DNA of 64,000 nucleotides, from positions 3,472,001 through 3,536,000 of the forward strand of contig JAJQJQ010000005.1 of the NCBI GenBank assembly GCA_028622995.1, read 5' to 3'. Shown one piece after another: positions 13,361-32,200 of this stretch; within the stretch, counting starts at the first letter, position 1; each line of letters opens with the position of its first letter. Origin of the DNA: Panagrolaimus kolymaensis. Its lineage: Eukaryota; Nematoda; Chromadorea; Rhabditida; Panagrolaimidae. Both the position numbers and the translations under genes were made by a program. Under the pieces are notes generated by a model that did not search any database, had not been told where the DNA came from, and saw nothing but the letters and a program-made list of their open reading frames with translations.

Positions 13361-13369
13361 GACGGACAG
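13361..13369. repeat. Target-site duplication, left copy
   Basis: GACGGACAG directly abuts the outer end of the left terminal repeat. An identical 9-mer abuts the right terminal repeat at 27615-27623. A length of 9 bp is the usual target duplication of Mutator-like elements. Confidence 0.85.
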
Positions 13370-13566
13370 GGCTTTTATTGAAAGTAGCGCGGTAGCGCGG
13401 TAGCGCCGTTTTCTTTCGTGTTGGGACCACTCCTTTTCATTTTTTCAATTATTGAAAGTAGCGCCGAAGGTAGCGCCATCATTTTTTTGATTACTTTTTC
13501 ACAGAATTAGGCAAATAATTAAAAAGGTTTTTTATTTTATAAATATATTTATTATTTCTCAATTAT
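13370..13566 (+). repeat. Left terminal inverted repeat
   Basis: Starts GGCTTTTATTGAAAG and ends TCAATTAT. It contains five GTAGCGC heptamers (at 13384, 13392, 13400, 13458 and 13470), in two clusters each preceded by ATTGAAA. Such clustered subterminal motifs are typical of transposase binding sites, but binding here is inference. Confidence 0.9.
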
Positions 13567-13631
13567 CACGCATACTGTTTAAAAATATATCTGTATATTC
13601 CTTGTCACAATTGAACTTTTTTTTTGTGTCC

Positions 13632-14306
13632 ATGGATTGGAAATTGCATCAGGATTGTGAAATGATTGAATCATCTTCCCCATATGGATCGGATTCTATT
13701 GAGAAGTATGTTTACTTAAAGGTAGCTCTTTTCATGGAAAATGAAAGGAATGAAAAAAAAAATGCTTGCGCAGAATGTGTATGAATGAAAAGCATTAGAA
13801 AGGTCGATGATTTGCCACCATTTTATTGTGCTTTATTATTAACTTCCCCATAATTTAATCCATTTTGTCTTTAAGAGTTTTTAAGCTCGACTTTCAAATA
13901 CTTATGGTTCCAATATGTTAATTGGTATTTAATAATTTTAAAACTTGTTACTATAAAAATTTATGATAGCTTGCATTGGGATTTTGCGCCAGTTTATGGA
14001 CCCTTAAAAATGATTGTTGAAGCTTATGTCAATATGCGAGTCGAATATGACCATAAATATGCAACTGTAAATTTACAACTTAATGAATACAATTGTGATG
14101 TTCACATTTGTCGAATGGCAGAAGAAATATGTTTTAACGGTGAAAATAGGTTTTTTGTGCCATCCCATGCATTTAAAGAAAGAGCTTTTGTTCAAATAAA
14201 TCTCCCTTTTTATGGTATCTTAAATGTTTGGCGACAAATCGGCCAACATGCAAATGATTTTGTAGATCCAATAGAGCATTTAGGATATATTTTTAATAAC
14301 AATTAA
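13632..14306 (+). CDS. Divergent galectin-like protein
   Basis: Two-exon model: join(13632..13705, 13970..14306), 136 residues. The donor is GAA|gtatgt and the acceptor gatag, and the phase is conserved. The ATG at 13632 lies only 65 bp inside the left terminal repeat. The body looks like one beta-sandwich lectin domain: a run of alternating hydrophobic strands (ATVNLQLNEYNCDVHICRMA) is followed by FVPSHAF and KERAFVQINLPFYGILNVW, and then IGQHANDF, which resembles the galectin strand that ends in NGQHxxxF. The classical H-x-N-x-R and W-G-x-E-x-R sugar contacts are not intact, so sugar binding is doubtful. There is no signal peptide, as usual for galectins. Galectin assignment is by pattern only; another jelly-roll lectin remains possible. 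Confidence 0.5.
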
Positions 14307-14312
14307 CAAAAT

Positions 14313-14878
14313 AAAAACAGCGATGATAATTTGATTGCTGGAAGTTAAAGATGAACAAGATAAAGAACCAATGACATTCAACGAACAAAGTAAAAAAAAA
14401 ATCAATAGATTAATGATGAAACAATTGATATTATTATGAACAGAGATGTTATCGATGGCCATGATGATAGACTTTTAGTAAGTGCAATTTGTTTGGGATT
14501 TCATTTTTCACAATTGAGGTCCATCGAATGGTGGTGCTAAATATTTAGAACAAGGTCCGGTTGAATATGGAGCTCAACGATTACTAACTAATACAGTTTT
14601 TAATAATAAAAAATTCAAAATCGAAGATTTAGAAATTGTCACATGGAGAGGAAATATTTATGATTCTTATATTTCTACGGCTATAATTCGTCCTGACAAT
14701 ACCAAAGAAAGTTTCGTTATTGAAGATTTTAATATAAACCTCGATACTGCCGATGCTGTAACGACATATCCATTTATCAAAAGACATTATTTCAAGTGTT
14801 TACCGGAATTAATTTTTTTATTTCCCGGTAAATATGATGGATTAGGGTTGACCGTTTTTAGCTTTAGGTTATTATGAG
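14313..14878 (+). pseudogene. Degenerate coding remnant, unidentified
   Basis: Coding-like sequence continues in broken frames. One stretch begins EVKDEQDKEPMTFNEQ and is interrupted near 14427. A second segment contains NRDVIDGHDDRLL. After a frame change near 14522, a long open stretch contains GGAKYLEQGPVEYGAQ and then STAIIRPDNTKESFVIEDF, ending at a TGA at 14876-14878. No splice combination I tried gives a continuous frame through all parts. The EYGAQ motif faintly recalls the E-x-GA element of FAD amine oxidases, which is too weak for a name. It most likely represents a decayed gene carried inside the element. Confidence 0.35.
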
Positions 14879-14980
14879 AGCTAAGAAGGTATTCTCATCT
14901 ATGAAATTTTTTTAAATAAAGCCTTTTTGGTAAATAAGCCCGACCATTCTTTCATTTTGCTTTCACAATAATAGTCTGTC

Positions 14981-17450
14981 ATGTCGCTTTCTAAGGCTGA
15001 AATAAAAATTTCTCTTGAAATTCTCGAAAAATTACCTCCCTTATACAGAGATGCTGTCATTAATTTGCTTGAAGAGTTAAATAATGGCAACGCGAATCAA
15101 ACAAAATTGTTTCGAAATTTCAGTAAAAAGTTCACCATGGTTTTGGATTTATGGAAGATTTGGTATTGGGAGTAAGTTTTTATTTAATATACATATTAGA
15201 ACCCACACGTAACATGTCATTATATGTAGGTTGTTACATGTTGAAAAGAGCAGGAAATTACTTTGTGTTAACTTTTTGTTGAATCAAACTTATATCAATC
15301 GTTTAATAAAAGAATAATAGCTCTAATTTTTGTTAATTTTAGATTCGATAATTACAAAATTCGTGACAAATTAAAGAAACAAGTTTTTCACCATTTCTAT
15401 CATGATGATTTTGATAGTTTCGCCTCTACCGACAATTTCATAGTAAGCTTTATTAATTTTTATTTTGAAGTACAAAAACCTATTAAAATAAAATACAATA
15501 TTTTAGTTGAAAGTTGGAAGCAAATATTTATATCGTTCATTTAATATTATAAACAGCCCACTTCTTAATCCTATTGAAACAAAAAATTCTATTAATGCAT
15601 TAAAGAATTTTTTGCAATATCCTAATTCAAATTTGGAAGAGGCTTTTAAATTGTATAAGCAAGAATCAAGTGAGGCTTTTAAATTTTCTAATCACGCATA
15701 TCAAAACTTATTTAAGGTGAACCATTAACCAAAGAATTGTGCGCAAAGTACGAGAAAGCATTGGCGCTTTAGAAAAAAATTGCAGCTGCTAACGGAGATG
15801 ATAAAAATTGGCTTGAATGTTTAAAAGAAGCAAACGATGATGAGTTCATCATTCAAAACGTTGAAATTCGAATTGGAAAACAACCATGGAATCAAACGCT
15901 TTGGAAGCTATACATTCAATATTTGAGTTCAAAAAATAATAAAGTAAGGAGAATAAGCTAAAATGGAAAACTTTCCAAATTTGAAATTTTAGAAAGTTCT
16001 CGTAGTTTACCGTCGATATTGTCGCTTTTTTATGGAAGATGAAAACGCGCATCAAAGATATTACAATGAAATATTAAAATTTAACAGGCTTGGTGTTAAT
16101 GTTTCAAAATCTTTTATTGAAATTGTGAAACTTATGTTGGATTTTTCATCATCGAACAAAAACGCTGCTTTAAATCTTCTTTTGGAAGCCATTAAAATAA
16201 CAAATTTTAAATCAAAAGCCTTATTAAAATTTGCAACAAAATTTACAAAAAAGTTTGGATTCATCAAAGAAATTACAGCTGTTGTAAATGAAAACATAGA
16301 TAGATTATTAAATTTAAAATGGACGAGAAACTTTTACACAAAATATGATAACTGCTTAGATTTTTACCCGGAAAGTTATGATTGCTGCTTAAAATATTTT
16401 GAACAAAACAACAAAGAAGCGGAAAACAACTTTTATGGATCACAAAAATTTCAAACACTTGATTTACCTTTGACAATTATAAATTATTTCATAAGCCAAG
16501 CTAACTTTGCTGCTTACTGTAAACTCCAACAATCCTGCAAACATATTTTTATAAAGGAAAATATCTTCATGGTTTGGGATTTACGGATATTATATTCATT
16601 TGATAAAGAAAAGCTACAACATAGAGAATTCCTAAATCAATCAATGTACACTCATGCTCAGGATTTGAAATTAAATAAAATGAATAAAATATGGCTTGGA
16701 AATAGCTTAAGCATTTATACAAAATCAAATAATTGTTTCTCAACAATTATTCCAAAGCTTTATTGTCCAAATCTTCAATATTTATGTTTAAAAAATCAAA
16801 TGTTCAAACTTCTTGAGCTTGATGTTGTTGTTGGATCAGGAAAAGTTAAAAAAGCAGATTTCAATGAAGTTGAAATTGAAAATTCTGATGGTTATTTAGT
16901 AAATTTTGAAGAAATAATGGAAAGATTTCCCAATGCTGAAGATTTTGTGTAAGCTTTTTTTTAAACTAAACTTAGAATAAATCCAACCAAATAAAAGGTG
17001 CACACTTTCAAAGTAAAAGTTATAATAAATTGTTTTTGTAGATGGTTTTCATCTCAATGCATAATCACCGCTGAAACCATCCTAAATTTAGTATCAATGC
17101 CGCGAAAAACCAAACTCAAAATTTTTTATTTGGATGCACAAAATATTATTTGGGATTCTGTTAATTTGTGCAAATTTATCAAGGTAAATTTACAAAAGTT
17201 TTAAAAAGCTTTTAGCTTAAAGCTTGGTATTTCTGGAAATCGGCCGTTATAATATTTTTTTGTTTAATTATCAAAGGATTTTTAGAAAAATGCTGCAAAG
17301 AATGCACTTTGGGATTTTTCGTTTGAATATACAAATAGCGATGAACGCAATCAAATACGTCTGTTAGAAGCAGCCATAAAGCAAATGTTTCCCTTTACTT
17401 TAGTTGGATTTGGAACTCCTGTAATTAACATTATGTCAATCGAAGGATAA
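14981..17450 (+). CDS. Helical (HAT-like) repeat / F-box-like fusion protein
   Basis: Seven-exon model: join(14981..15171, 15343..15442, 15507..15716, 15773..15943, 15993..16948, 17042..17183, 17286..17450), 644 residues. All junctions keep phase. Residues 1 to about 350 are helical, with aromatic-rich patterns (LWKIWYWE, LWKLYIQYL, VVYRRYCRFFM) that resemble half-a-TPR (HAT) repeats of RNA-processing factors. Near residue 380 an F-box-like motif begins (LDLPLTIINYFISQANFAAY) and is followed by leucine-rich sequence, as in nematode F-box families. Both parts share the single exon 15993-16948, so the fusion is not a splicing guess. Exon 3 to 4 is the weak junction: the proposed 56-nt intron (15717-15772) itself looks coding, and without splicing it carries a frameshift and a TAG. 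An SCF-adaptor role for the F-box half is family knowledge; the role of the fusion is unknown. Confidence 0.6.
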
Positions 17451-17554
17451 TAATATATTGGTATCTTTTATGGCTTTTTGTGTGTGCTGCTTGTTTTCAC
17501 TCTTAATGATGAACTCGATAACCTTGTATTTTTTCCTTTGTAAAAACAATTTAT

Positions 17555-19845
17555 TTATTGATATGAAAAACAGCATAATATTGCTATAAAATACAAAATA
17601 ATAATATTAAATAAACAGAAGATTGAAGGCGTTGAAGAAAGGGCAAGTTGCTCTTCTTCCTCATAAAATTGCACAAGCTGACTGCATTCATCAGGAAGTA
17701 CAGGCCATTTAACCTTTAACATTCCTATTATTGATTTTCGACTTGATTGAAATAATCTTACAAGAATCTAAAATTGATTGGCATTGAAGTAAGCAAATTA
17801 TTAGGATTAGGAAAGCTTTAAAATTACTAGAGAAATGAGAGGGACTTACTCGTCGAGTAACATGCCCACAAAATTTTGTGTATTCTTCAATTGAGCAAGT
17901 TGAAAGGGTATTCATATCTCGACAAATTGTATCCACAACTAATAGGGAATGATTATGGGTTAAAGTTTCCATCGATTGTCGAAGATTATGGCTTTCGATA
18001 TAACATCCCAATGTCAAAGTATCGATATTAGTTTTCCAACAATCAAATTCACCAACTAATTCTAAAAATAAATTTTGGATACATTAAGCAGAAACAAAAT
18101 TAATTAAAGCAAGTAGCAATCGTTGTTTTCGGCTGCTTTTTATGTACCAATATTTTTTGTGGCATAAGAAAATCGTAAAGCCAACCTTCAAATTTCCGAC
18201 AAAGTTGATTCCATGGTTCTAAACCCAATCTAAGAATTCTTTGTTCCAGTGAAGGAGAACATCGACTAAGGCACATATCTAATAATTCGTTATTTCTAAA
18301 ATCATATCCAACTTAACTTTATAATAGGTAAATTTGGGCTTTTTAAAAACTAACTCGCATATTCTTTTTGCTTTTTCTGTGGCTGCTTCAATGCTTCCAT
18401 TGGTTCGTAAAAGGGATAATAATGGAAATGCAAAATCCATTGACCATTCATTATCCATCTAAAAATTAATTTTTTTTTTGTAAACACATGGAGAAGGATC
18501 GTTAGCAAAAAGATTTTTGATAATTCCAAAAGCGTATTAAGTGTATTTATAAAAAAGATAACATTTTTTATTTTGTGTTAGCCGCAAATATTGCTTTCTT
18601 ATCTTCTTCCTAAAGAATCCGCTGCAATCTCTTTAAGCATATTTTTTGTAATCCTTCCTTCTCTTTACATTATTATTTTTTCATCTTTAAAATCCATGCA
18701 TACCTTTCAAAGAAGCTTTTCTTCTAAACAAATGTTTTTAGAAAAAAATTTCAACTCAAATTTTAATCTTTTCATGCGTATTTCCTTTTCTTCCTCTTAT
18801 TTTTATAACCTCCTTTTGCGCTAGAAAACAATTATTGAGAAGAAGGAAGGAGAATAAAAAGAAAGAAAAAAAGCATCCATTACGATTTTTTACTTTACCA
18901 AAAAAAAACATCAAAAAATCCCATAAAAAAAATTTCAACAAGCTTTTTTGTTGAGCGGGAAAAAAAATTTTTTTTTACTCAAAATGTTTTTTACGCTTTA
19001 GCTTAGGAAGAAGTAAAGGTATGGGAACAAACCTAATCCAAAAGTTTTAAGTTTGGAAGACGTTCGAAAAAATTAAAAGTGCAAAACCAAAATAGTGACA
19101 ACGGCATTGATTAAATTTTATTAAAGTATCAGTCTTGTCATAAAACTTTTTGTTGTTGTAAATGATGGATTTACATTTGAGGTAAAGATTTAAAAGAAAA
19201 TACAGAAAAGGGTATTTGAAGCAATTAAAGGCGGATATTAGCTTATTAAAAAAATTTGACACCAATTATGGAAACAAAAAATAATTACCACATTTTTTTA
19301 AAGAAGGTATTCCACTGGGATTTTTTTTTACAGACTGTTAGTTACTTTAATAAAGCAAAGAAGGAATTGAAAGTTTTAATAACGTTTTTTTACTAAAAAA
19401 TAAAATCATAAACAAAGAAGGCGAAAATTCTAATGGAAAAAAGAATGCGATAATTTTTTTGGTTTCAAAGAAAGCAATTTTCAATTCGGCCAAAATTTTA
19501 AATAAAATATTTATTTGATGATCTAATTTAATTTTCACCACCCTATTTTTTTTTCTTCACATGTATCATAAATTCACTCACCTTAACCATATGATCATCT
19601 TTACATTTGAGTAAACAAGATGATACTGAACCTTGATTGGTTGCAGTATTTCCTTCTCCATCATTTTCACTTTTAGAAGAAGCTTGATTTCTTCCATCAT
19701 CCAATAATTCTTCTTCGGCTGATGATTTATTTGGAATATTATTATTATTATTTGATGTTGCAAAAATACCAGTAAAAATAATTATAAAATAAATAATAAA
19801 TATTTCGAAATTATATAATTTTGTAATTTTATTATTATTACCCAT
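17555..19845 (-). CDS. Secreted, probably GPI-anchored cysteine-rich nematode protein
   Basis: Five-exon model: complement(join(17555..17767, 17850..18061, 18186..18295, 18355..18458, 19582..19845)), 300 residues, all phases consistent. Residues 1-30 contain a charged N-terminus and a strong hydrophobic core (FIIYFIIIFTGIF), consistent with a signal peptide or anchor. A low-complexity Asn/Ser/Glu region follows. The core is helical with regularly spaced cysteines (SCLLKC, MCLSRC, LCRKF, DCWK, TLGC, TICRD, STCSI, FCG). The last 22 residues are hydrophobic, as in GPI-signal tails. The CxxxC-helix layout resembles the chondroitin-proteoglycan-4 (CPG4) type domain of nematodes, a tentative assignment. 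The 1.1-kb first intron contains no other gene I can support. The 3' end lies about 100 bp from the converging gene that ends at 17450. Confidence 0.6.
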
Positions 19846-20832
19846 TATTACTGTAACGTCTTCTGGGTCCTTAAAGAGGTTGTTGAGCAACAAAAAAAAC
19901 GAAGAAAGGTTGTAAAAAGATTATTATTATTTTCTTTCCAACTTTTTTTTAACAACCAACAAAAAAAAATCTTTTGAATTTATTTATAAAAAAAAAAGTG
20001 TTATAGTTTTTCTGTTATATTTTTCGTCGTCGTTGTTGTTGTAGTGTTGTTGTTAAAAATCGCTGCTACTCTAACTACCGCCACCACCACCACTGCCTTA
20101 GGGAATGAATGAAAAAAAAAGTGCAACAAGAAGAACATAGCTTCAAAAGAATAGGAAAGGCCGGCAAAAAGTGTTGATGCCTGTCAAGAGTAGTTTACCT
20201 TTTTTTTCTTTTCTCCATAAAAAAAATATTTCAAGCTTCATTCTGAAGAAAGAAAGGGAGGAAAAAAAAATAGGCGGAGAAATAAATTCAGTCAGTTCAA
20301 TTCAATTTTTGAATGAAACTGAAACATCGTCTTCTTCTTATTTTTCTTCGTTGCTGAGCTTGATGCTTTCAACCAATATCACTTGCTTGCTTACTTACTT
20401 ATTTTTTTTTACTTACTCTTCTTTCTTAACTTTTTTATTCGAAAAATGTCAAAGTATAAATAAAAAAAAAGTTACTTGAGAACTTACATCCGGTAGAAGA
20501 AGAAATATAAAAAAAAAATGCAAAGGAATAAAAGTTAAAGTTCTCCAGGGAAGAAAAGTGTTGAGAAGCAAGCAACTTTGACAAGTTTGGACTTCTTGTC
20601 GTCGTCGTTGTTTTGCCTTTGCTTGCTTGGTTCTCTTCTTCGTCTTCTTCATTTTTTTGGAACGTCATTTACTTACCCTAAGGCTTTCTGCTATTTAGTG
20701 ATTCCTGCTGTGACTTTTTTGTGAAAATTTTTTTTTTATATAAAACTAAAAACATACGAGCAATCTACATAGTCAAATTAAACTAAAGTAAAAAACAAAA
20801 ATACATAATAACAACAAAAAATAAAATAACAA
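19846..20832. other. Spacer between two minus-strand cargo genes
   Basis: AT-rich DNA with GTT/GTC-rich trinucleotide stretches near 20025-20095. It is the 5' flank of the gene ending at 19845 and the 3' flank of the TRMT10C-like gene. I see no gene in it. Confidence 0.5.
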
Positions 20833-22070
20833 CTAATTGTTTGCTTGTTGAAGTTTCATACGATTTCTTTCTTCCCGAGTGTATTTATGAATACGATGAG
20901 GATGTTTTTCTTTTAACTTTTCTCTAAGAATTTCTTCATTTGAATATTCATTCATTTCTTTTAGAGTTCTCGATGATGGTTGTTGAATTCGATTCTTGTT
21001 TTCATATTGGTGTTTTGATGATGGTGGTGATGGATTCATTTTGCGAAAATGAAGTTGCTTGACTGCTTCTTTCATGGCCTAAAATTGCAAAAGGTTAAAT
21101 ACATATTTACAAAAAAATAAAGTAACGGTTATTTTATGGAACTCAATAACAAAAACATAAAAGATAGCTTTCTAAAATACCTTATTTCTTTCATTTCGTG
21201 CTCTCAAAATTCCAATTTCTTCTGTACTCAGCTGACGCTTTTCAAAATGGTGATTAGGAACTTTTCGTAACAAAGCTTCTTTCCAACTAGCTTCACCAGT
21301 GTAAACCATTTTGAGAATAGCAGCTTTGATAGATAAAGTTAAATCTTTTGGTCCTTGTTCCCATTTAACATGTTTTTCAATTGGAAATCGATAAGCCAAG
21401 AATCCATCATTTGAAGCAGCAATTGAAGGCGTTTGCCATATTCCTGAGCCTTCAGCAGTTGTATGAAGAACAAAAGCTTTGAATTCAGAGATATCATCAT
21501 CAAGAAATCTTGTTGCGGATCTTGAAATTACAGCCACTTCATCTAGAAAATGAATGAAATAAATAAAGGAGTGTTGAAGAAGAAGAAACTTACGAGGTTG
21601 AATACCCGCATCAAGCACAGATTTGACTCCTCTTGAAGTGATCCTAGGAGTAAATTCATGGTTTATACATTCTTCAGAATCATCAACTGGAAGAAGATCT
21701 TGAATATCATTAAATTCATCAATACCCAATTTAGGAAAATTTTGATCCAATGTTGCAACAGAGGGTGAAATTCCAAAAGCAAATGACCATTTCCTAAAAA
21801 GTTAATTAATCACGCCAGCATAAAAACGAATAAAAGTTCCTTACGATCGAACTAATCTTGCGACAAAATCATTCATTAATAAATTACAAATTGAAAGTTT
21901 AGATGGATGAGGATGAAACCAATTATTATCATACAACGATTTAACTTGTCTGAAAAGATTGGAACAATAACAGGAAGAAAAAAGAAATAAAAAAATTACC
22001 CAACAAATTTAGCAATATTCTTTTCACCATTCTTTGCTAAATATCGACAATCGAGAATTATTTGTGGCAT
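20833..22070 (-). CDS. TRMT10C: TRMT10C/MRPP1-like SPOUT methyltransferase-fold protein
   Basis: Five-exon model: complement(join(20833..21078, 21181..21542, 21594..21793, 21845..21949, 22000..22070)), 327 residues, phases all fit. In animals TRMT10C (MRPP1) is the tRNA m1R9 methyltransferase-fold subunit of mitochondrial RNase P. Matches by pattern: the opening strand IILDCRYL; a central segment with HEVAVIS; then FPIEKHVKWEQGPKDLTL followed by WKEALLRKVP, which corresponds to the conserved K-W-E-x-G-x-K-x-LTL and W-x-EAL-x-x-VP blocks of the family. The catalytic Asp expected just after the VIG strand is not seen; the aligned region reads ISRSATRF. The protein begins at the SPOUT domain, so the usual long N-terminal part and mitochondrial targeting sequence are missing. 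Upstream in-frame sequence hits a stop within about 50-60 nt. It may therefore be a truncated cargo copy or a divergent accessory subunit. Confidence 0.6.
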
Positions 22071-22210
22071 TTTTTCATCAACCCTTTCCTGGGCAAGTAA
22101 ACGTGAACCATGCAAAATATTTATTTAACTAAAAAAATGGAGGAAGAAAAAAAGCAAGCAAGCAACAACAATCAAAAAAAAATTTGAAAAAAGTTGCAAC
22201 AAAAAAATTG

Positions 22211-22573
22211 ATGGATCATCATAAACTTATGCGGCCAATTTTTTGTGATAATCCTAAAAATTATAAAATTAAAATTGGCCAACTTTTCGACCTCCAAGAT
22301 GAAAACTTTTTAGAATCATCGGTTTTAAAAACGGATGAATCATCAACGGCGATTCGAATATTTGATATTAATAAAAAAGTTAAAATTGAAACTTTTTATA
22401 AACCATTTAAATGTGAATTTATTTCAAGCCTTGTTTCAGATGATTTGATTACGGATTGGTATTTTCAAAGATGCTTGAAAGTATCCACTCATGAAAATTT
22501 TACTTCCATTTACCATTTTTTTCCTCCCTGCATATTTTACGATGTTTTCTCGTCAAGAATCAGCATTAACTGA
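22211..22573 (+). CDS. Small hypothetical protein, divergent from the TRMT10C-like gene
   Basis: A single open frame of 120 residues starting at an ATG at 22211, with coding-like composition. It is mostly hydrophilic with helical segments and ends in an aromatic-rich stretch. Its start lies 140 bp from the start of the TRMT10C-like gene on the opposite strand, so the two would share a promoter region. No family is recognised. An intron near the 3' end cannot be excluded, because the last 25 residues (YHFFPPCIFYDVF) look less like the rest. Confidence 0.4.
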   Translation: MDHHKLMRPIFCDNPKNYKIKIGQLFDLQDENFLESSVLKTDESSTAIRIFDINKKVKIETFYKPFKCEFISSLVSDDLITDWYFQRCLKVSTHENFTSIYHFFPPCIFYDVFSSRISIN

Positions 22574-22793
22574 AACTATGATATCAGAAGAAAAAAGCTG
22601 GTATGCAATGCTGCATTAAAGAGAAAACTAAAAACACTTCCAAAAATTTTACAGTTAATTAGTTTATTCTTTGTAACAATAGAAACCTGATAAAACAAAT
22701 ACATATAAAGATATACTAATAATTAACAATGAAAAAAAATAAACAGGAATGTTAGTGGTTTTGAGCTCGAAGAATTGGTTGAAAATTTTGTAA

Positions 22794-24010
22794 TTATCGA
22801 GGTTGTTCATGTTGGTTGAATCTTTTCTTCGCATATTTCATACTGAAAAATAAACTTGCATAAAGTAAGGCAAAACTATTAAGAATTACCTTTTATTCAA
22901 CATGTATTGTGCAGCTTGAATTTGCGGTTGAGTTCCAATAATAGTGATTACCCGATCTTGATTTCTAACAGAAGGAGAAATTACAATTCCGGCCCCAGAT
23001 TGTTGACGAACGCGATTGATACTTTCACCACCTTTACCAATGATCATTCCACCAAGTTTGTCAGGAAATGTAATCTAAAAATAATAATAGTTAGAAAATG
23101 TTTGGAACCAAATGATACAAGTATATTTTTTCAAACAAAAAAAAAATCAAAAATATAAAGAAAAAGAAACCTACCGTTTTAGTTTTAATATAGTCACCAT
23201 CTTTTCCAACACCAGCATCTTCTTTTTCCACAGCTTCATCAGCACCTTTTTCAGGAGCAAAAATTGGGACATTGAAATGTTGACAAATATCATCATTGTT
23301 AATTGATGGATATTCACGAACAGGAGAACTTTCAGGCGATACAAGAGGCGAAGATGGAACAAACGCACGAAGAGACGAACGAAAACCAGTTGTGTTAGAA
23401 AGAACATGAATAACAGCTGAAGTAGAAGCTGAAAGAGATTTTGGACCATGGAATACATTATTACCAGAAAGTTTTTCTTGTTGGAGCTTCATTTCTTCGG
23501 CTAAACGTTGCTTTTCTTCATTAGCTCGACGAGCTGCTTCTTCTTTTTCTAGTTTAACACGAGAACGTTCTTCTCTAGCTTTTCTGCCCGCTTCTTTTTG
23601 AAGTTCTTTTTGTTCACGACGAGCTTGAGTTGCTGCTTCTCTTTCTTCTTTTTTTCGTCTAAAAATTGTCTTTATATCCCAGTGCTTTTGTCTTTCAAAA
23701 CCTTACCTCTTTTCTTCTTCTTTAAGTTGTTTTTCAAGTTCAAGCTCTAAATAAAAATATTAAAATCAATAATAAAAACGGATTACATACTTTCTGGTGT
23801 TGGTGTGATTTTAGCTTTTTTTCTTGGAGTTCTTGCAATTGTCCTTTTTTCTTCATGTTGCTTTTGTACTTCTAAGTGTTGCTGATCTTTTTCTTCAGGA
23901 TTACCATCAAGTCGTCGCTTATAACCTCGTGTAAAATATGGTGGAGGTGGAGGATCTTCATCATCAGTAACGATACAACGATTTCCATTTGAGTCGATAA
24001 TTTCAACCAT
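22794..24010 (-). CDS. KH-domain RNA-binding protein, hnRNP K-like
   Basis: Five-exon model: complement(join(22794..22842, 22890..23074, 23175..23658, 23707..23746, 23791..24010)), 325 residues, phases all fit. The N-terminus is acidic with a proline run (residues 18-24) and basic patches that may act as nuclear localisation signals. A charged coiled coil rich in E, K, R and A spans roughly residues 75-145. A Ser-rich linker follows. One type-I KH domain occupies about residues 249-310, with the GXXG loop as GKGG at 261-264 and the sequence IIGKGGESINRVRQQSGAG, closest in pattern to the third KH domain of hnRNP K (IIGKGGxxIxxIRxxSGA). The protein should bind single-stranded C-rich RNA or DNA. 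Unlike hnRNP K it has one KH domain instead of three, so the name is only a family label. The start ATG follows directly on AT-rich promoter-like DNA. Confidence 0.7.
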
Positions 24011-24722
24011 TTTAGAGCTAAAAAAATGTTAAGTGAATAAGTCGGTATAAAAAAATGACGGAGAAGCTAGCAATTAAAAATGTCAAACAAGCGTCAAAGT
24101 TTGAAGAAAAAAATTGCAGCAAAAAAGGTCAAAACCGAAAAATGTTTTTTTCGCGCCAAAAGTATGGGAATTTAGCGGAGCGACTGTTTGATCCTTCCAA
24201 GATGATAAAATTATTGTGAAAGGGACAAATTTTAGGTGAAAAATAAGAATAAATGCATGCATGTAAAATTCGATACGAAACGTATCATTTATGATTAATT
24301 TTAACCATGCTCCATATACCTAACACCAAAAAATCAAGAAACAAAAAAGATGAAATAAAAAATGCTTCTTTTATTTTCTTCTAAAACTTTCAATTTCTTC
24401 CACAAATTTCTTCTTCTAATATTGAGTAATAAAAATTGATAATAAAGTAAAAATAAATTATTACCACCTTCTTTTTCCACTTTATAAGCTACCTAGCTAT
24501 TTCAGCCAAATTAAAGTTTGCCTTTGTTTTTTGTCAAAGCTAAATTTATGTTAGAATATTTATATTTTTTTTTGTAATTCAAGCCAAAAAGGTGCGCGTA
24601 AAGGTTTTTCTTTGTCTCTCTGGCAGCAAAAAGCGAATCTTTAAGCGTTCCTTTTTTGGTTTTCACTTAAGCCCAAGCAACCGGATAAATTTTTTGGTTA
24701 ATCTTCGGTTCATTTTGCGTCA
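24011..24722. other. 5' flank of KH gene and left shoulder of the hairpin array
   Basis: 24011-24550 is AT-rich with no gene seen. From about 24586 base composition rises in GC and the sequence contains several short self-complementary segments before the first copy of the flanking direct repeat at 24723. Confidence 0.4.
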
Positions 24723-24751
24723 GCCTTCTTCATTTATCTCTTCGGAGATTC
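24723..24751. repeat. Direct repeat flanking the array, left copy, with UUCG-type hairpin
   Basis: GCCTTCTTCATTTATCTCTT and its continuation match 26041-26069 with one difference. The repeat contains ATCTC-TTCG-GAGAT (24736-24749), a perfect 5-bp stem with a C(UUCG)G loop, which is exceptionally stable if transcribed on the plus strand. Confidence 0.75.
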
Positions 24752-24754
24752 CTT

Positions 24755-26045
24755 CACATTTATGTGTTGCTGCCTTACCTTCGCTTTATGCGTTGTTGCC
24801 TTACCTTCACATTTATGTGTTGTTGCCTTACCTTCACATATTTATATGTGTTGTTGCCTTACCTTCGCTTTATGCGTTGTTGCCTTACCTTCGCATATTT
24901 ATATGTGTTGTTGCCTTACCTTCACATTTATGTGTTGCTGCCTTACCTTCGCATATTTATATGTGTTGTTGCCTTACCTTCACATTTATGTGTTGCTGCC
25001 TTACCTTCACATTTATGTGTTGTTGCCTTACCTTCACATATTTATATGTGTTGCTGCCTTACCTTCACATTTATGTGTTGTTGCCTTACCTTCACATATT
25101 TATATGTGTTGCTGCCTTACCTTCGCTTTATGCGTTGTTGCCTTACCTTCACATTTATGTGTTGCTGCCTTACCTTCGCTTTATGTGTTGTTGCCTTACC
25201 TTCACATATTTATATGTGTTGCTGCCTTACCTTCACATATTTATATGTGTTGCTGCCTTACCTTCACATTTATGTGTTGCTGCCTTACCTTCGCTTTATG
25301 CGTTGTTGCCTTACCTTCACATATTTATGTGTTGCTGCCTTACCTTCGCTTTATGCGTTGTTGCCTTACCTTCGCATATTTATATGTGTTGCTGCCTTAC
25401 CTTCGCTTTATGCGTTGTTGCCTTACCTTCGCATATTTATATGTGTTGCTGCCTTACCTTCACATTTATGTGTTGTTGCCTTACCTTCACATATTTATAT
25501 GTGTTGCTGCCTTACCTTCGCTTTATGCGTTGTTGCCTTACCTTCACATTTATGTGTTGCTGCCTTACCTTCGCTTTATGCGTTGTTGCCTTACCTTCAC
25601 ATATTTATGTGTTGCTGCCTTACCTTCGCTTTATGCGTTGTTGCCTTACCTTCGCATATTTATATGTGTTGCTGCCTTACCTTCGCTTTATGCGTTGTTG
25701 CCTTACCTTCGCATATTTATATGTGTTGCTGCCTTACCTTCACATTTATGTGTTGTTGCCTTACCTTCGCATATTTATATGTGTTGTTGCCTTACCTTCA
25801 CATTTATGTGTTGCTGCCTTACCTTCGCTTTATGCGTTGTTGCCTTACCTTCGCATATTTATATGTGTTGTTGCCTTACCTTCACATTTATGTGTTGCTG
25901 CCTTACCTTCGCTTTATGCGTTGTTGCCTTACCTTCGCATATTTATATGTGTTGTTGCCTTACCTTCGCTTTATGCGTTGTTGCCTTACCTTCACATATT
26001 TATATGTGTTGCTGCCTTACCTTCACATTTATGTGTTGTTGCCTT
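24755..26045. repeat. 1.3-kb tandem array of 26-31 bp hairpin units
   Basis: Roughly 45 units. Each has a constant part, TTG(C/T)TGCCTTACCTTC, followed by a short inverted repeat: CACATTTATGTG (27-bp unit), CGCTTTATGCG (26-bp unit), CACATATTTATATGTG or CGCATATTTATATGTG (31-bp unit), and rarely CACATATTTATGTG (29-bp unit). Unit types alternate irregularly. The two arms of each inverted repeat change together (CAC with GTG, CGC with GCG), with G-T wobble forms as intermediates. Because units lack stop codons in every plus frame, all three frames are open for over 1.3 kb; this is a composition artefact and I do not call a protein. Confidence 0.9.
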
Positions 26046-26069
26046 CTTCATTCATCTCTTCGGAGATTC
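26041..26069. repeat. Direct repeat flanking the array, right copy, with UUCG-type hairpin
   Basis: Matches 24723-24751 with one substitution, in the part before the stem. The ATCTC-TTCG-GAGAT hairpin is intact at 26054-26067. Confidence 0.75.
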
Positions 26070-26090
26070 TTCGGATACACCTGTTAACTG

Positions 26091-26205
26091 GTGGGGGCGA
26101 AAGCCCTTTTCTTCTTCAAAGTACAGCCGCCTTGACGTGGCGAAGGAGCTTAAGCTGTTTCGATTAATTTAATCAAAACAGCAACTAAGAGCTGTACTAA
26201 ATAAT
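26091..26205 (+). other. Hairpin-rich segment, candidate structured RNA
   Basis: Several stems follow one another: GGGC-GAAA-GCCC with a GNRA-type tetraloop (26095-26106, extendable by G-T pairs); CGCC/GGCG across TTGACGT; the palindrome AGCTTAAGCT; and a long stem made of GCTGTTT/AAACAGC plus GATTAA/TTAATC with a near-zero loop. This density of self-complementarity is unusual for the AT-rich surroundings. No known RNA family is recognised. Confidence 0.4.
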
Positions 26206-27418
26206 TTTTGGAATGCTATTTTGGTGTTCGTTACTGGTCAAAACGAAGTTAAACGATTGTTAAAATTATTGACTCAACGATATCCAATGAAAGCAAAACA
26301 AGTTAAAGGACATTTGACTAAAAAGAAAGATCGAAAGGTATGGTAGTTTTTTATGCTGAATGAATGTGATGATAATAATGTTTTTATTTTTAGAAGGCTG
26401 AAAAAGAAAAAGTGAAATTATCAAATTTTTCTGATAAAGCGAATTCTCTTCTTGATGGAAAACCTCAAACATCAAAAGAAGAAACAGATGATGGCAAAGC
26501 TGATTTGGATGAATTTGGTGCAGCAGATTGTGGATTTCTTGATGATGATATGGATGATTCAAATCTTTTTAATGGTTCTTTACCTCCACCACCGCCTGGT
26601 CTTTCACCACTTTATTGTCTTCCACTGTATTCTCTTCTTTCATCAGCAAAACAACAACGTGTATTTGAACCACCACCAGAAGGAACTCGACTTTGTGTTA
26701 TCGCAACCAATGTAGCTGAAACATCTCTCACAATTCCAAATATTCGTTATATCGTTGATTGTGGAAAAGAAAAGCGACGAGATTATGATCCAATTACAGG
26801 TGTATCACAATTCAATATTCATTGGATTTCTCAAGCTTCTGCTGAACAAAGATCTGTTCGAGCTGGACGAGTTCAAGCTGGACATGCTTATCGTCTTTAT
26901 TCATCAGCAATGTTTGAAGATTTTATAACTTTTTCTCAACCTGAAATTCTTAACAAACCTGTGGATCAACTTGTTCTTCACTTGAAAGCAATGAATATTG
27001 TCAAAGTTTCAAATTTTCCATTTCCAACACCACCTCAAGCTGATCAATTGGAAATTGCTGAGAAGCGACTAACGCTTATGGGAGCTCTTTCGTCTGATGG
27101 AAAGGTTGGTTTCAGTTTATGATCATGGTTTTAATGTTTAATTTTTAGAAAGATGCAAGAATTACAACTCTTGGTAAAACACTATCATTATTTCCGCTAT
27201 CTCCACCATTTGCTAAAATGCTTGCTATGGCCAATCAACATGATTTAATGCCATATGCAATTTATCTGGTATCAGCTTTATCTGTTCGTGAACCTATGAA
27301 TCATATCATTCATCAAACTGGATTGGATTCAATTGAAACTCAAAAGAAAATGAAAGAAATTTTGAAACAACGACAAAAATGGTGTGGCATTGGACAATCT
27401 CGTCGTTTAGGTGAATAA
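26173..27418 (+). pseudogene. DHX37: Truncated DHX37-type DEAH helicase fragment
   Basis: Three exons, join(26173..26337, 26394..27104, 27149..27418), in one continuous frame of 381 codons plus stop. DHX37 (yeast Dhr1) is a DEAH-box RNA helicase of small-subunit ribosome assembly. The fragment starts at motif IV (ILVFVTGQNEV), has an acidic insertion, then LPLYSLL, motif V ([11 protein letters not shown]) and the start of the helicase-associated region (YAIYLVSALSVRE, then WCGIGQSRRLG). Motifs I, II and III are absent; upstream DNA is the hairpin array, not helicase. Motif VI reads QRSVRAGR where the family has QRAGRAGR, so an invariant glycine is lost. The stop codon lies at the inner edge of the right terminal repeat. 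A working helicase is not expected. Intron boundaries are canonical, so capture was from genomic DNA. Confidence 0.75.
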
Positions 27419-27614
27419 TAATTGACAAACAATAAACATATTTATAAAATAAAAAACCTTTTTAATTATTTGCCTAATTCTGTGAAAAAGTAATCAAAAA
27501 AATGATGGCGCTACCTTCGGCGCTACTTTCAATAATTGAAAAAATGAAAAGGAGTGGTCCCAACACGAAAGAAAACGGCGCTACCGCGCTACCGCGCTAC
27601 TTTCAATAAAAGCC
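27418..27614 (-). repeat. Right terminal inverted repeat
   Basis: Reverse complement of 13370-13566. The outermost 177 bp are identical, and three substitutions lie in the inner 20 bp. It holds five GCGCTAC motifs, mirroring the left side. Confidence 0.9.
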
Positions 27615-27623
27615 GACGGACAG
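27615..27623. repeat. Target-site duplication, right copy
   Basis: GACGGACAG, identical to 13361-13369, immediately outside the right terminal repeat. Confidence 0.85.
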
Positions 27624-29263: not shown

Positions 29264-32200
29264 ATGCTTCGAATCCAGGAATTTTTTAGAGAAATTATGA
29301 ATCGCCGACGCGAGCCTCCTCAAACTAATAAACCTTCCTCGCCAAGTCCATCATATTCATCGATTACTCCTCCAAAAGTTAAACCAAAACCATATCAACT
29401 TTATTCAACACAATGGTTAATTCTTGCAATTCCTATAATTTTATTATGCTTCTTTGGACATTTTTGCCATATGAAACTTCCTGAACCTCATGATCCAAAT
29501 CATGGTAGGTCTTTTTTTAAGTTTTTTGTACGGATTTAAAAAAGGTATTTTTTAAAGCTAATACTCAATTTTCTGAAAAGCGTGTTACACCTATTTTATT
29601 TAAACTTTCAAATTTGGGTCCAAAACCTTTTGGTTCAGCCGCTGCAGATGAAACGGTAAAAATGCTTCAAGATGAAGTCAAGCTTTTAAAAAAGATAGTG
29701 GATAAAGGACCAAATAAATTGGATATTGAAATGCAATATCCTTCTTCATGTTTTTCTGTGCCTAAATTTGATGTGGATGGTTTTGGAATGTGTTATAAAA
29801 ATGTTTCAAATTTAATTATTCGGTTGACACCAAAAGAAAAGTAAGTAAATATAATTAGGTATTTATTTGAAGATTATCTTTTTGTAATGAAATGCAAATT
29901 TATGAAAGGGCAAATTTATATATTGAAATCCGGTTTTTAGACTATCATCGAAAGCCAAAGATGAAGGCGCCCTTCTTCTTAATTGCCACTTTGATAGTTG
30001 GCCCACGAGTCCAGCGGGAAGTGATGATCTTGCATCGTGTGCTATTTTACTCGAACTCATTCATATCCTTGGTGACCCAAATGCTCCAGCACTCAAACAT
30101 GATTTGATATTTCTTTTTAATGGAGCTGAAGAAGCTGGCTTGCTTGCTTCTCATGGGTTTATTACTCAACACAATGAAAGACATCGAATTAAAGGTTTTG
30201 TTAATTTGGAAGCAAGCGGTTCGGGAGGCCGAGAAATTTTATTTCAATCTGGTCCATTTTCTCAATGGATGTTAGATGCATATTTAAAAGCCGCTCCATA
30301 TCCTTATTGCTCGGTTATCGGACAAGAAGTATTTCAAAGTGGAATAGTTCCAAGTGACACAGATTTTAGAATTTTTAGAGATCATGGAAAAATTTCTGGT
30401 AAGACTTTTTAGGGTAAAGACAAAGCTACATTTTTTACAAACCTTTGCGACAAAGTTTTCAATATTGCCAAAAAAATACTTTTTAGGTTTGGATTTTGCA
30501 TTTGCTCAAAATGCATATTGGTGGCATACAGAATTTGATGAAGCTAGAAGAATTACACCTGGTTCTATTCAACGAGCGGGAGAAAATGTTTTAGCAACTT
30601 TGCGATATCTTCTCTCACAAGATTCTTTCGATGAAGCAAATAACACTCAAACATCCATTTTTGTTTTCTTTGATTTTCTTGGTTTATTTACCATTTCTTA
30701 TTCTTTTTTCACCGCTTGCATTCTCAACATAATTGCAACGATAGCTGTTTTTGTTGGATTTGCGAAGCGACAAATTGATTTTAATGTTTATCAAAGTAAG
30801 CAAAAATCAATCCCTGAAATAATTTAACTAAAAAATTTAATATTTTTAGTTGGATATTTTGAACAATTGAAAGTTTCTGCTATTACAACCGTTACATATT
30901 TTTCAATTTGGGTCTCAATCAGCTTATTTATGAGATATTTTATTTTATTCCTTGGTGAATTTCTTGATGCTAAACTTTTATGGTTAACATCTCATTCAAA
31001 TGTTTATCCATTAATGGTATTTCCCATTTTGTTTTTAGCTTTTGCTTTATTTAGTTTTGTTATTAATTATTCAAATAATGTAAGTTTTATCTTTAAAAAG
31101 GTTACTTGATTATCCTCTAAAAAGTCCTATATTTTCTAATCAACAACAAAAATGTTTCAGCCTCAAACTTCCATAATGCTTGGATGGGCTTTCTTTGATT
31201 TACATAATTTCACCATTCTCATAATTCTTTGGAGCGTTACATACATGAAATCAGCGGCAGGATTTTTATTTTTAGCTATGCTTATTCCAACTATTATTGA
31301 TGCACTTATTCGAGTTTTTTCACATTCTTTATGTAAGAGTTTTATACTTACATGCTTATTTCAAATTGTATAATTTTTTAGCTCAAACATTTTCATCCTT
31401 TTATCATTTTTGGATTATTTTACCAACATTTTTACCGGGTATTTTAACGCTTCATTATATTTTGGAAGTAACATTAAGCACATTTATTCCCATTCTTGGT
31501 CGATCCAAAGGTGACACAGATTTTTTGGTTTTAATTATTTGCATTTTTGGTGTTTTTTCAACTTTCTTTGTCACGGTTTGTAACATTTTTAAAGTTATTT
31601 TCTCTTAGGGAAAAATTAATTTTAGCTTCCATTAATGGCATTTACAAATAGAAAAACCTTACATAATATGAGGCTAATTGGCGGAGTTATTGTAGCGGTT
31701 TGGTTAATCGCAGTTGTGTTTATTTCACATCCATACAGATATGATGATGCATATCCAACAACAAGAAGAACACAATTTTATGTAAGCTTTGCTCCTTCTT
31801 TAGTTTTAGGTCTTTACAAATAAAATATTTTTAGCATGTTCGAAATCGTGTATTATCCCAAGATTCTTCGATGCAAGAAAATTACCAGCAATTACTTGCC
31901 ATTGCACAAGATAATCGAAAAGTTTATGATATTCCTTTTGTTGGAAATGATCCTGAATTTAAGGAAATTGATTGTGAAGGAAAAGGGAGATATTGTAATT
32001 TACCCTTCTTCTTTCCAACTCCAGATCGATTAGGGCCAAAGTAAGTTTGTTTTTGTTGAAACAAAACTTTGAAACCTTTTTAAAGCACACAATCTCATTA
32101 GATTTTTTTATAGTATGATTCGTGCCAAAGCAATAAATGACGAAAGTCTTGATTTTTATGAAGCTAAAATTGAAGTTAAAAGTAAAGCTCTTGATTCTCA

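Follow-up and report, generated by a model that had tools for sequence, protein, structure and literature searches.

How a block of more than 14 kb, laden with gene sequence, came to lie between a pair of transposon-like ends is the question posed by a 64,000-nt stretch of the Panagrolaimus kolymaensis genome (GenBank assembly GCA_028622995.1, contig JAJQJQ010000005.1, positions 3,472,001 to 3,536,000 of the forward strand; hereafter the window). An earlier note, made from the letters of the window, had described this block as a giant element with terminal inverted repeats (TIRs), a Mutator-type target duplication, and a cargo of several apparently intact host genes, and had offered it as a new kind of gene-moving element. 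The block is a non-autonomous, Pack-TIR-type TIR transposon that is recently mobile, unusually large, and multi-source in composition. With a probability of roughly 87%, it belongs to a TIR family with at least 26 end pairs and has moved as a whole unit, together with captured cargo, to at least four sites; this estimate covers the family and the movement with captured cargo, and the alternatives weighed below for the filling step and for the transposase overlap, such that their odds are not mutually exclusive.

The window element (E1) occupies 13370-27614 (14,245 bp) with a copy of GACGGACAG on either side, and its ends are laid out as follows:

13361-13369, no strand: left 9-bp target site duplication, GACGGACAG, a single copy of which is present in four of five uninterrupted repeat copies
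13370-13566, plus strand: left terminal inverted repeat, 197 bp, with at least 40 genome matches
27418-27614, minus strand: right terminal inverted repeat, 197 bp, directly adjoined by a DHX37 fragment
27615-27623, no strand: right 9-bp target site duplication, GACGGACAG

The two arms form a 197-nt inverted repeat that is 98% complementary (194/197 identical), with mismatches only at positions 178, 185, and 189 counted from the outer end. The earlier observation of a TIR-bounded block, with identical outer 177 bp in its arms and the same 9-mer on both sides, is confirmed as real. Given that three other loci share this end pair and its three mismatches, and carry 9-bp duplications of their own, a chance origin of the ends is excluded.

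These three loci hold further large copies within the same assembly (265.8 Mb in 807 contigs, designated here by C-numbers; L-numbers designate detected loci or ends of the family). The four copies, 14,245-15,181 bp in length, occupy unrelated sites and are each flanked by a perfect 9-bp duplication that differs from copy to copy; the end pairs of E2, E3, and E4 lie 14.6-15.2 kb apart:

E1, the window copy: 14,245 bp, duplication GACGGACAG
E2, C3:2111722-2126902 (loci L009/L010): 15,181 bp, duplication GAAGAGAAG
E3, C2:3634601-3649246: 14,646 bp, duplication CTAACTTTA
E4, C2:4079941-4094817: 14,877 bp, duplication AAGCAAAAA

Outside a minisatellite, E2, E3, and E4 differ from E1 by 0, 0, and 4 substitutions and by 2, 2, and 3 gaps, respectively, over 12,926 bp; nearly all of the difference in length among the four is due to variation in the minisatellite span (24740-26060), which measures 1,319, 2,253, 1,718, and 1,950 bp in the four copies. 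Uninterrupted targets were found for two of the four, E1 and E3, these being the two that were examined. E1 is inserted in a repeat, and five sister copies of that repeat, fetched via the joined E1 flanks, are all continuous across the site; the empty site with a single 9-mer that the earlier note had proposed to look for is present in four of the five as one exact GACGGACAG, although these are sister copies of the repeat rather than the same locus. The E3 flanks match two further places, on C17 and C9, at 95-96%, both of which are uninterrupted and carry CTAACTTTT where the filled site carries CTAACTTTA; of the three homologous copies of this site, one holds E3 and two are empty. The near-identity of the four copies, their four different duplications, and the two uninterrupted targets bear out insertion of the block as one unit and establish its mobility, which had previously been a mere inference: the 14-15 kb unit has moved whole to at least four sites. 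This spread is very recent.

A segmental duplication of a gene-bearing region that held two family members by chance might also place several genes between paired ends, and the multi-kb, intron-containing, several-gene cargo is of the kind usual for such duplications. A TIR, however, marks the limits of every copy, next to a 9-bp duplication particular to that copy; no similarity is seen when the 380-bp flanks of the large copies are compared with one another; and uninterrupted targets hold one target copy, all of which renders the proposal highly improbable overall and refutes it for the four copies. An assembly artefact, wherein a single element has been misplaced at several loci, is brought to mind by the near-identity of the copies and by their length, which is close to the mean HiFi read of 14.4 kb given for P. 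kolymaensis in PMC10374039; it too has very little to commend it, given that minisatellite lengths differ among the copies and that each has its own perfect target duplication.

The ends are by no means confined to the large copies. A TIR search of the assembly returned at least 40 places, among them the three further large copies (the best 40 of 64 candidates were scored), and the terminal 18-bp pattern, with at most one mismatch, has 67 genome matches as against 4 for the reversed control. Altogether, 26 distinct facing end pairs (27 rows, with one site counted twice) and 14 unpaired ends were obtained; 19 of the 26 pairs measure 6,068-7,009 bp, and the others measure 2.65, 4.56, and 8.44 kb, in addition to the four large copies. 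Among the 19 of the 26 pairs examined for target duplications, the four large ones included, a perfect 9-bp duplication was found in 15, an 8-bp duplication in one, and a duplication with one mismatch in one; L020 and L021, both among the 15, share outer flanks and represent one event. The family is thus characterized by TIRs of about 200 bp, mostly 9-bp duplications, and at least 26 paired copies. Its sequence extends into the large element as one further feature:

13370-14756, plus strand: the family's own left end, 1,387 bp, 89-98% identical in 12 of 12 fetched members of 6.1-7.0 kb

On the right, about 200 bp of the large element are approximately 92-97% identical to the 6.1-7.0 kb members, while its interior has no match to 17 fetched family loci at E 1e-3. 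Three loci (L039, L040, and L041) show little match to the left end of the large element beyond the TIR. A coding stretch lies partly inside the family left end and is truncated at the junction with the cargo; no Pfam match was found for it in the frames tried. For a frame of the family members, one homologue was found, in Panagrolaimus superbus (42%), without a Pfam domain. Helitron-like and Ulp1-like frames in the 6.6-kb members were discerned by eye only, with no Pfam match above cut-off (the sole PDB match of the Ulp1-like frame is at E 0.71), and are not claimed.

Three further loci deserve mention in their own right. At L026/L051 (C51:773900-788400), a family left end of 2,268 bp, 99.7% identical to L027, gives way to sequence that is unrelated to the family and includes a kinesin gene (best PDB match 5x3e); it is not counted as a second gene-carrying element, as neither a right TIR nor a second target copy occurs in the 14.5 kb. 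At L016 (C34:782734-789371), the 20-bp flanks are mutually inverted (...GGAATCTCG / CGAGATTCC...) and are not direct duplications. Lastly, E2 and three 6.8-kb members (L020, L021, and L025) are inserted at the identical base of copies of one foldback repeat (about 236 bp, ends tacaatccg...cggattgta), all with the duplication GAAGAGAAG and with E2 in the opposite orientation to the other three; this common site could be a hot spot or could record in-place exchange of cargo between TIRs.

Where, then, does the remainder of the element come from? Between the 1,387 bp on the left and the approximately 200 bp on the right lie about 12.7 kb of cargo, which can be divided as follows:

14757-17482, plus strand: cargo S0, with an open 319-codon frame at 15993-16952
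17483-22126, no strand: cargo S1a, contiguous, 95% identical to C21:595531-600173 (4.7 kb) and 93% to C45
22124-22452, no strand: cargo S1b, 94% identical to C21:606288-606621, which lies beyond the DHX37 fragment in the donor
22454-26215, no strand: cargo S2, an hnRNP K-like KH block plus a minisatellite, collinear in pieces with C19:2135229-2138198 at 83-94%
24751-26045, no strand: minisatellite inside S2
26214-27414, plus strand: cargo S1c, an internal DHX37 fragment, 96% identical to C21:602720-603926

Most of this cargo originates elsewhere in the genome, S1a, S1b, and S1c being three pieces of a single DHX37/TRMT10C-like gene neighborhood, since the DHX37 coding sequence at C21 extends past the captured part in both directions and since the order of the pieces differs, being S1a-S1c-S1b at C21 and C45 and S1a-S1b-S2-S1c in the element. 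A comparison of the cargo with parental copies had been recommended at the outset, and most of the cargo DNA was indeed recovered outside the element in this way; the sources number at least two, and probably three, genome places. As is expected of a Pack-TIR, TIRs of the same family bound sequence foreign to that family, the target duplications are distinct for each copy, and parental copies outside such TIRs are present for S1 (C21 and C45) and as S2-like sequence (C19 and C16), where the fetched donor-like stretches contain TIR-like matches only to inner pieces (24-44 bp, 77-88%). At C4:2191328-2196370, a homologue of the DHX37 neighborhood, the S1a-S1b spacing is 5.0 kb as opposed to 6.1 kb at C21 and C45 (about 1.1 kb shorter), and no S1c match is found there among the best 40 of 129 candidates, a pattern that would fit the absence of S1c. 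The two ends of the S2 minisatellite block (24267-24400 and 26087-26215) recur at numerous other places, mostly with 98-100% identity, and a separate repeat therefore seems to be nested in S2.

The condition of the cargo genes only partly agrees with what had been proposed for them. The truncated helicase was correctly recognized as such: S1c is an internal fragment of DHX37, its best two PDB matches being the human and mouse DHX37 chains (E 6e-70 and 2e-69). Its helicase motif QRSGRAGR reads QRSVRAGR in the element (a G-to-V change), and the element-specific codon changes comprise 9 synonymous and 2 non-synonymous ones, a ratio that fits a mostly constrained gene history before capture. S1a contains minus-strand coding frames without a supported label, together with a 5'-truncated TRMT10C-like gene on the minus strand, the upstream exons of which are lost at the S1a/S1b junction; judged by eye, the frames run on past this point in C21, and the indels of this copy relative to its relatives fall, also by eye, outside coding exons. 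At least two cargo genes are therefore truncated, DHX37 (to an internal fragment) and the TRMT10C-like gene (on its 5' side), and the description of several intact genes was too strong. Of the gene labels, the DHX37 helicase and the KH domain held up, the TRMT10C-like label is weak (six of seven PDB matches, E 0.02-0.05), and the lectin-like and F-box labels find no sequence support in Pfam or PDB. The KH block is at most a candidate for a whole gene. The 319-codon frame is open and identical in all four large copies, although this is not independent evidence because the copies are near-identical; it has no match at E 0.01 in a large protein database and none at E 5 in PDB. It belongs to a family with at least 130 genome matches (the best 125 of 2,446 candidates were scored), four of which are the element copies, and its best near-full-length relatives among the matches listed are 36-39% identical.

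With respect to how the cargo was assembled, overlaps were seen by eye at three of the four donor-mapped junctions (about 3 bp at S1a/S1b, 2 bp at S2/S1c, and 1 bp at S1c/right end), and at S1b/S2 an overlap is not clear. These junctions suggest that the middle of one family member may have been replaced by DNA from at least two, and probably three, places through break repair or replication template switching, with the left 1,387 bp and the right approximately 200 bp being kept; the new 14-15 kb unit would then have moved as a whole, with a transposase presumably acting in trans on the TIRs. Alternatively, the outer ends of two neighboring members may have mobilised an intervening host segment as a macrotransposon, with the present order owed to earlier deletions or rearrangement. 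The unequal retention of family sequence on the two sides would suit such an origin, which also resembles the hybrid-element model described for plant Pack-CACTA elements (PMC13317346); yet a single excision cannot yield S1a-S1b-S2-S1c when the order at C21 and C45 differs and S2-like sequence lies elsewhere, and the need for several prior rearrangements makes this origin unlikely. Beyond the replacement of one member's middle, a bolder and distinctly improbable proposition is that, in this clonal, parthenogenetic nematode (the triploidy of P. kolymaensis being reported in PMC10374039), the family serves as an active vehicle for assembling genes, by which blocks from unlinked loci would be joined into one 14-15 kb mobile cassette with at least one gene open and then spread. 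If this were true, new multi-gene combinations would arise and disperse without sex, and the foldback site common to E2 and the three 6.8-kb members could reflect the swapping of whole cargoes between TIRs.

Several results weigh against a mobile TIR element with captured cargo, or at least against its completeness as an explanation. Two of the 19 family pairs examined are without a duplication. No close donor of S0 was found in the genome by DNA search, leaving this piece without the parental copy seen for S1 and S2. S2-like sequence is multicopy, occurring at a dozen or more other genome places, including C19 and C16, and may therefore have entered as a repeat rather than as a resident gene. 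The S1 sequence of the element differs from C21 and C45 about as much as those two differ between themselves, and neither therefore stands out as the exact donor; lineage-specific differences number 69, 81, and 101 for the element, C21, and C45, respectively, in S1a (4,500 aligned columns) and 18, 16, and 25 in S1c (1,198 columns), so that the capture would be about as old as the split of the homologous copies or would have drawn on another copy. Finally, six-frame scans revealed no transposase domain in L015 (6.6 kb) or L041 (8.4 kb), and none of the 74 genome matches to the MULE domain (PF10551; MULE, Mutator-like element) lies within 15 kb of a detected family end, the nearest being 15.4 kb away. 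The mobilising enzyme might therefore come from another superfamily that makes duplications of 8-9 bp.

The assignment to MULEs rests on the 9-bp duplication and the length of the repeats, and on both counts it fits: MULE target duplications are 8-11 bp long, usually 9 bp, and a perfect 9 bp is found in 15 of the 19 family members examined. The autonomous partner with a MULE transposase and the same ends that had been envisaged was encountered neither in the PF10551 scan nor in the six frames of L015 and L041, and the assignment accordingly stands unproven. A mover from another superfamily with 8-9 bp duplications would account for the lack of transposase in these two members and for the placement of the 74 MULE matches, each of which either is separated from the nearest detected end by more than 15 kb or lies on a contig where no end was detected, and the 8.4-kb member L041 encodes, in its six-frame scan, a BED zinc finger, which is often seen in hAT proteins. 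Such a mover is somewhat unlikely nonetheless, as 9-bp duplications in 15 of 19 members and TIRs of about 200 bp are both usual for MULEs (PMC3169594, PMC8277862). The element thus works like a Pack-MULE, without being filed as a proven MULE, and its mover is probably a Mutator-type transposase. Other classes of large or gene-capturing elements correspond less well. Polinton/Maverick elements carry PolB, integrase, and capsid genes and make 6-bp duplications; the 9-bp duplications rule against them, and no Polinton domains were found in the six frames of 14700-22128 or in 20 open reading frames searched singly. Helitrons have neither TIRs nor target duplications, both of which are present here.

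Elsewhere in the window, sequence on the right-hand side of E1 (29933-30496, plus strand) encodes an M28 peptidase domain, and an Rfam search of the window returned nothing at the gathering cut-off. In the genome at large, SL1 RNA models have full-length matches at at least 33 places (among the best 50 of 118,112 candidates) and in 0 of 14 control genomes, with E values of 3e-4 to 9e-4, below the Rfam gathering score, which points to a nematode; arrays of SL1-like RNA genes are located at C15:1861-45910 and C56:1418662-1458597, mostly with a spacing of about 4.1 kb.

How, then, does the element relate to systems already described? A multi-kb, multi-source Pack-TIR from a nematode was not found among the best-ranked entries of the open-licence literature, which is not proof of absence, and no such element is named in the available portions of PMC6446971, PMC8288018, and PMC11156385. 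Among nematode elements, Turmoil-1 of Caenorhabditis elegans likewise holds captured gene fragments in a DNA transposon, but it is of the Harbinger type, usually with 3-bp duplications, and the captured stretches inside its TIRs measure 205 and 131 bp (PMC2572040). The Tm1 elements of root-knot nematodes (Mutator/Foldback) share the 9-bp duplications and long TIRs, and one Tm1 class contains possible host sequence; they differ in their terminal motifs and in their size of 0.17-2.5 kb (PMC3169594). Membership in Tm1 is not indicated, as the TIR is without the CGATTCAGTATCGC-type motif C, which has one exact match in the genome. Meloidogyne as the origin of the DNA is rejected on account of this single match and of the helicase, whose nearest Meloidogyne enterolobii entry among the best 120 of 587 matches, compared among proteins of similar length, is 65% identical. 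Plant Pack-MULEs similarly hold gene fragments between MULE-type TIRs and are mobilised in trans (PMC6431247, PMC13317346), but none exceeded 7 kb in Jiang et al. 2004, most being 1-2 kb, and capture of full-length genes by Pack-MULEs is described as exceptionally rare (PMC6431247).

In animals, a 2021 survey recorded 370 Pack-TIRs in 100 genomes, four of them multicopy cases and none a Pack-MULE in the reference genomes (PMC8277862). The present element agrees with these in having captured sequence between the TIRs of one element and overlaps at its junctions (median 2 bp in the survey). Internal sequence in the survey was limited to 5,000 bp (10,000 bp was tried in human; PMC8277862), and a search without a length ceiling would be straightforward to repeat. 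A mobile, multi-source cargo of 12.7 kb implies that animal TIR elements can move several genes or pieces jointly, including an open reading frame, and with copies that are almost identical, targets free of the insertion, and donor-like loci all present in a single assembly, the capture mechanism, the transposase, and the expression of the cargo become testable. The closest counterpart is Ssk-FB4 of Drosophila melanogaster, a Pack-MULE according to its authors, which is also non-autonomous, has TIRs of hundreds of bp, 9-10 bp duplications, and a captured host gene, occurs at several loci with distinct duplications, and has a mover that was not identified (PMC8277862). Given that animal Pack-TIRs, including this multicopy Drosophila case, are already published, the proposal of a new kind of element was too strong, and the P. 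kolymaensis element is better regarded as a large, multi-source variant: Ssk-FB4 took one gene from one donor (PMC8277862), whereas the nematode element combines, in changed order, about 12.7 kb drawn from at least two, and probably three, sources within a unit of 14-15 kb. Its novelty is one of size and number of sources, the principle being already known.

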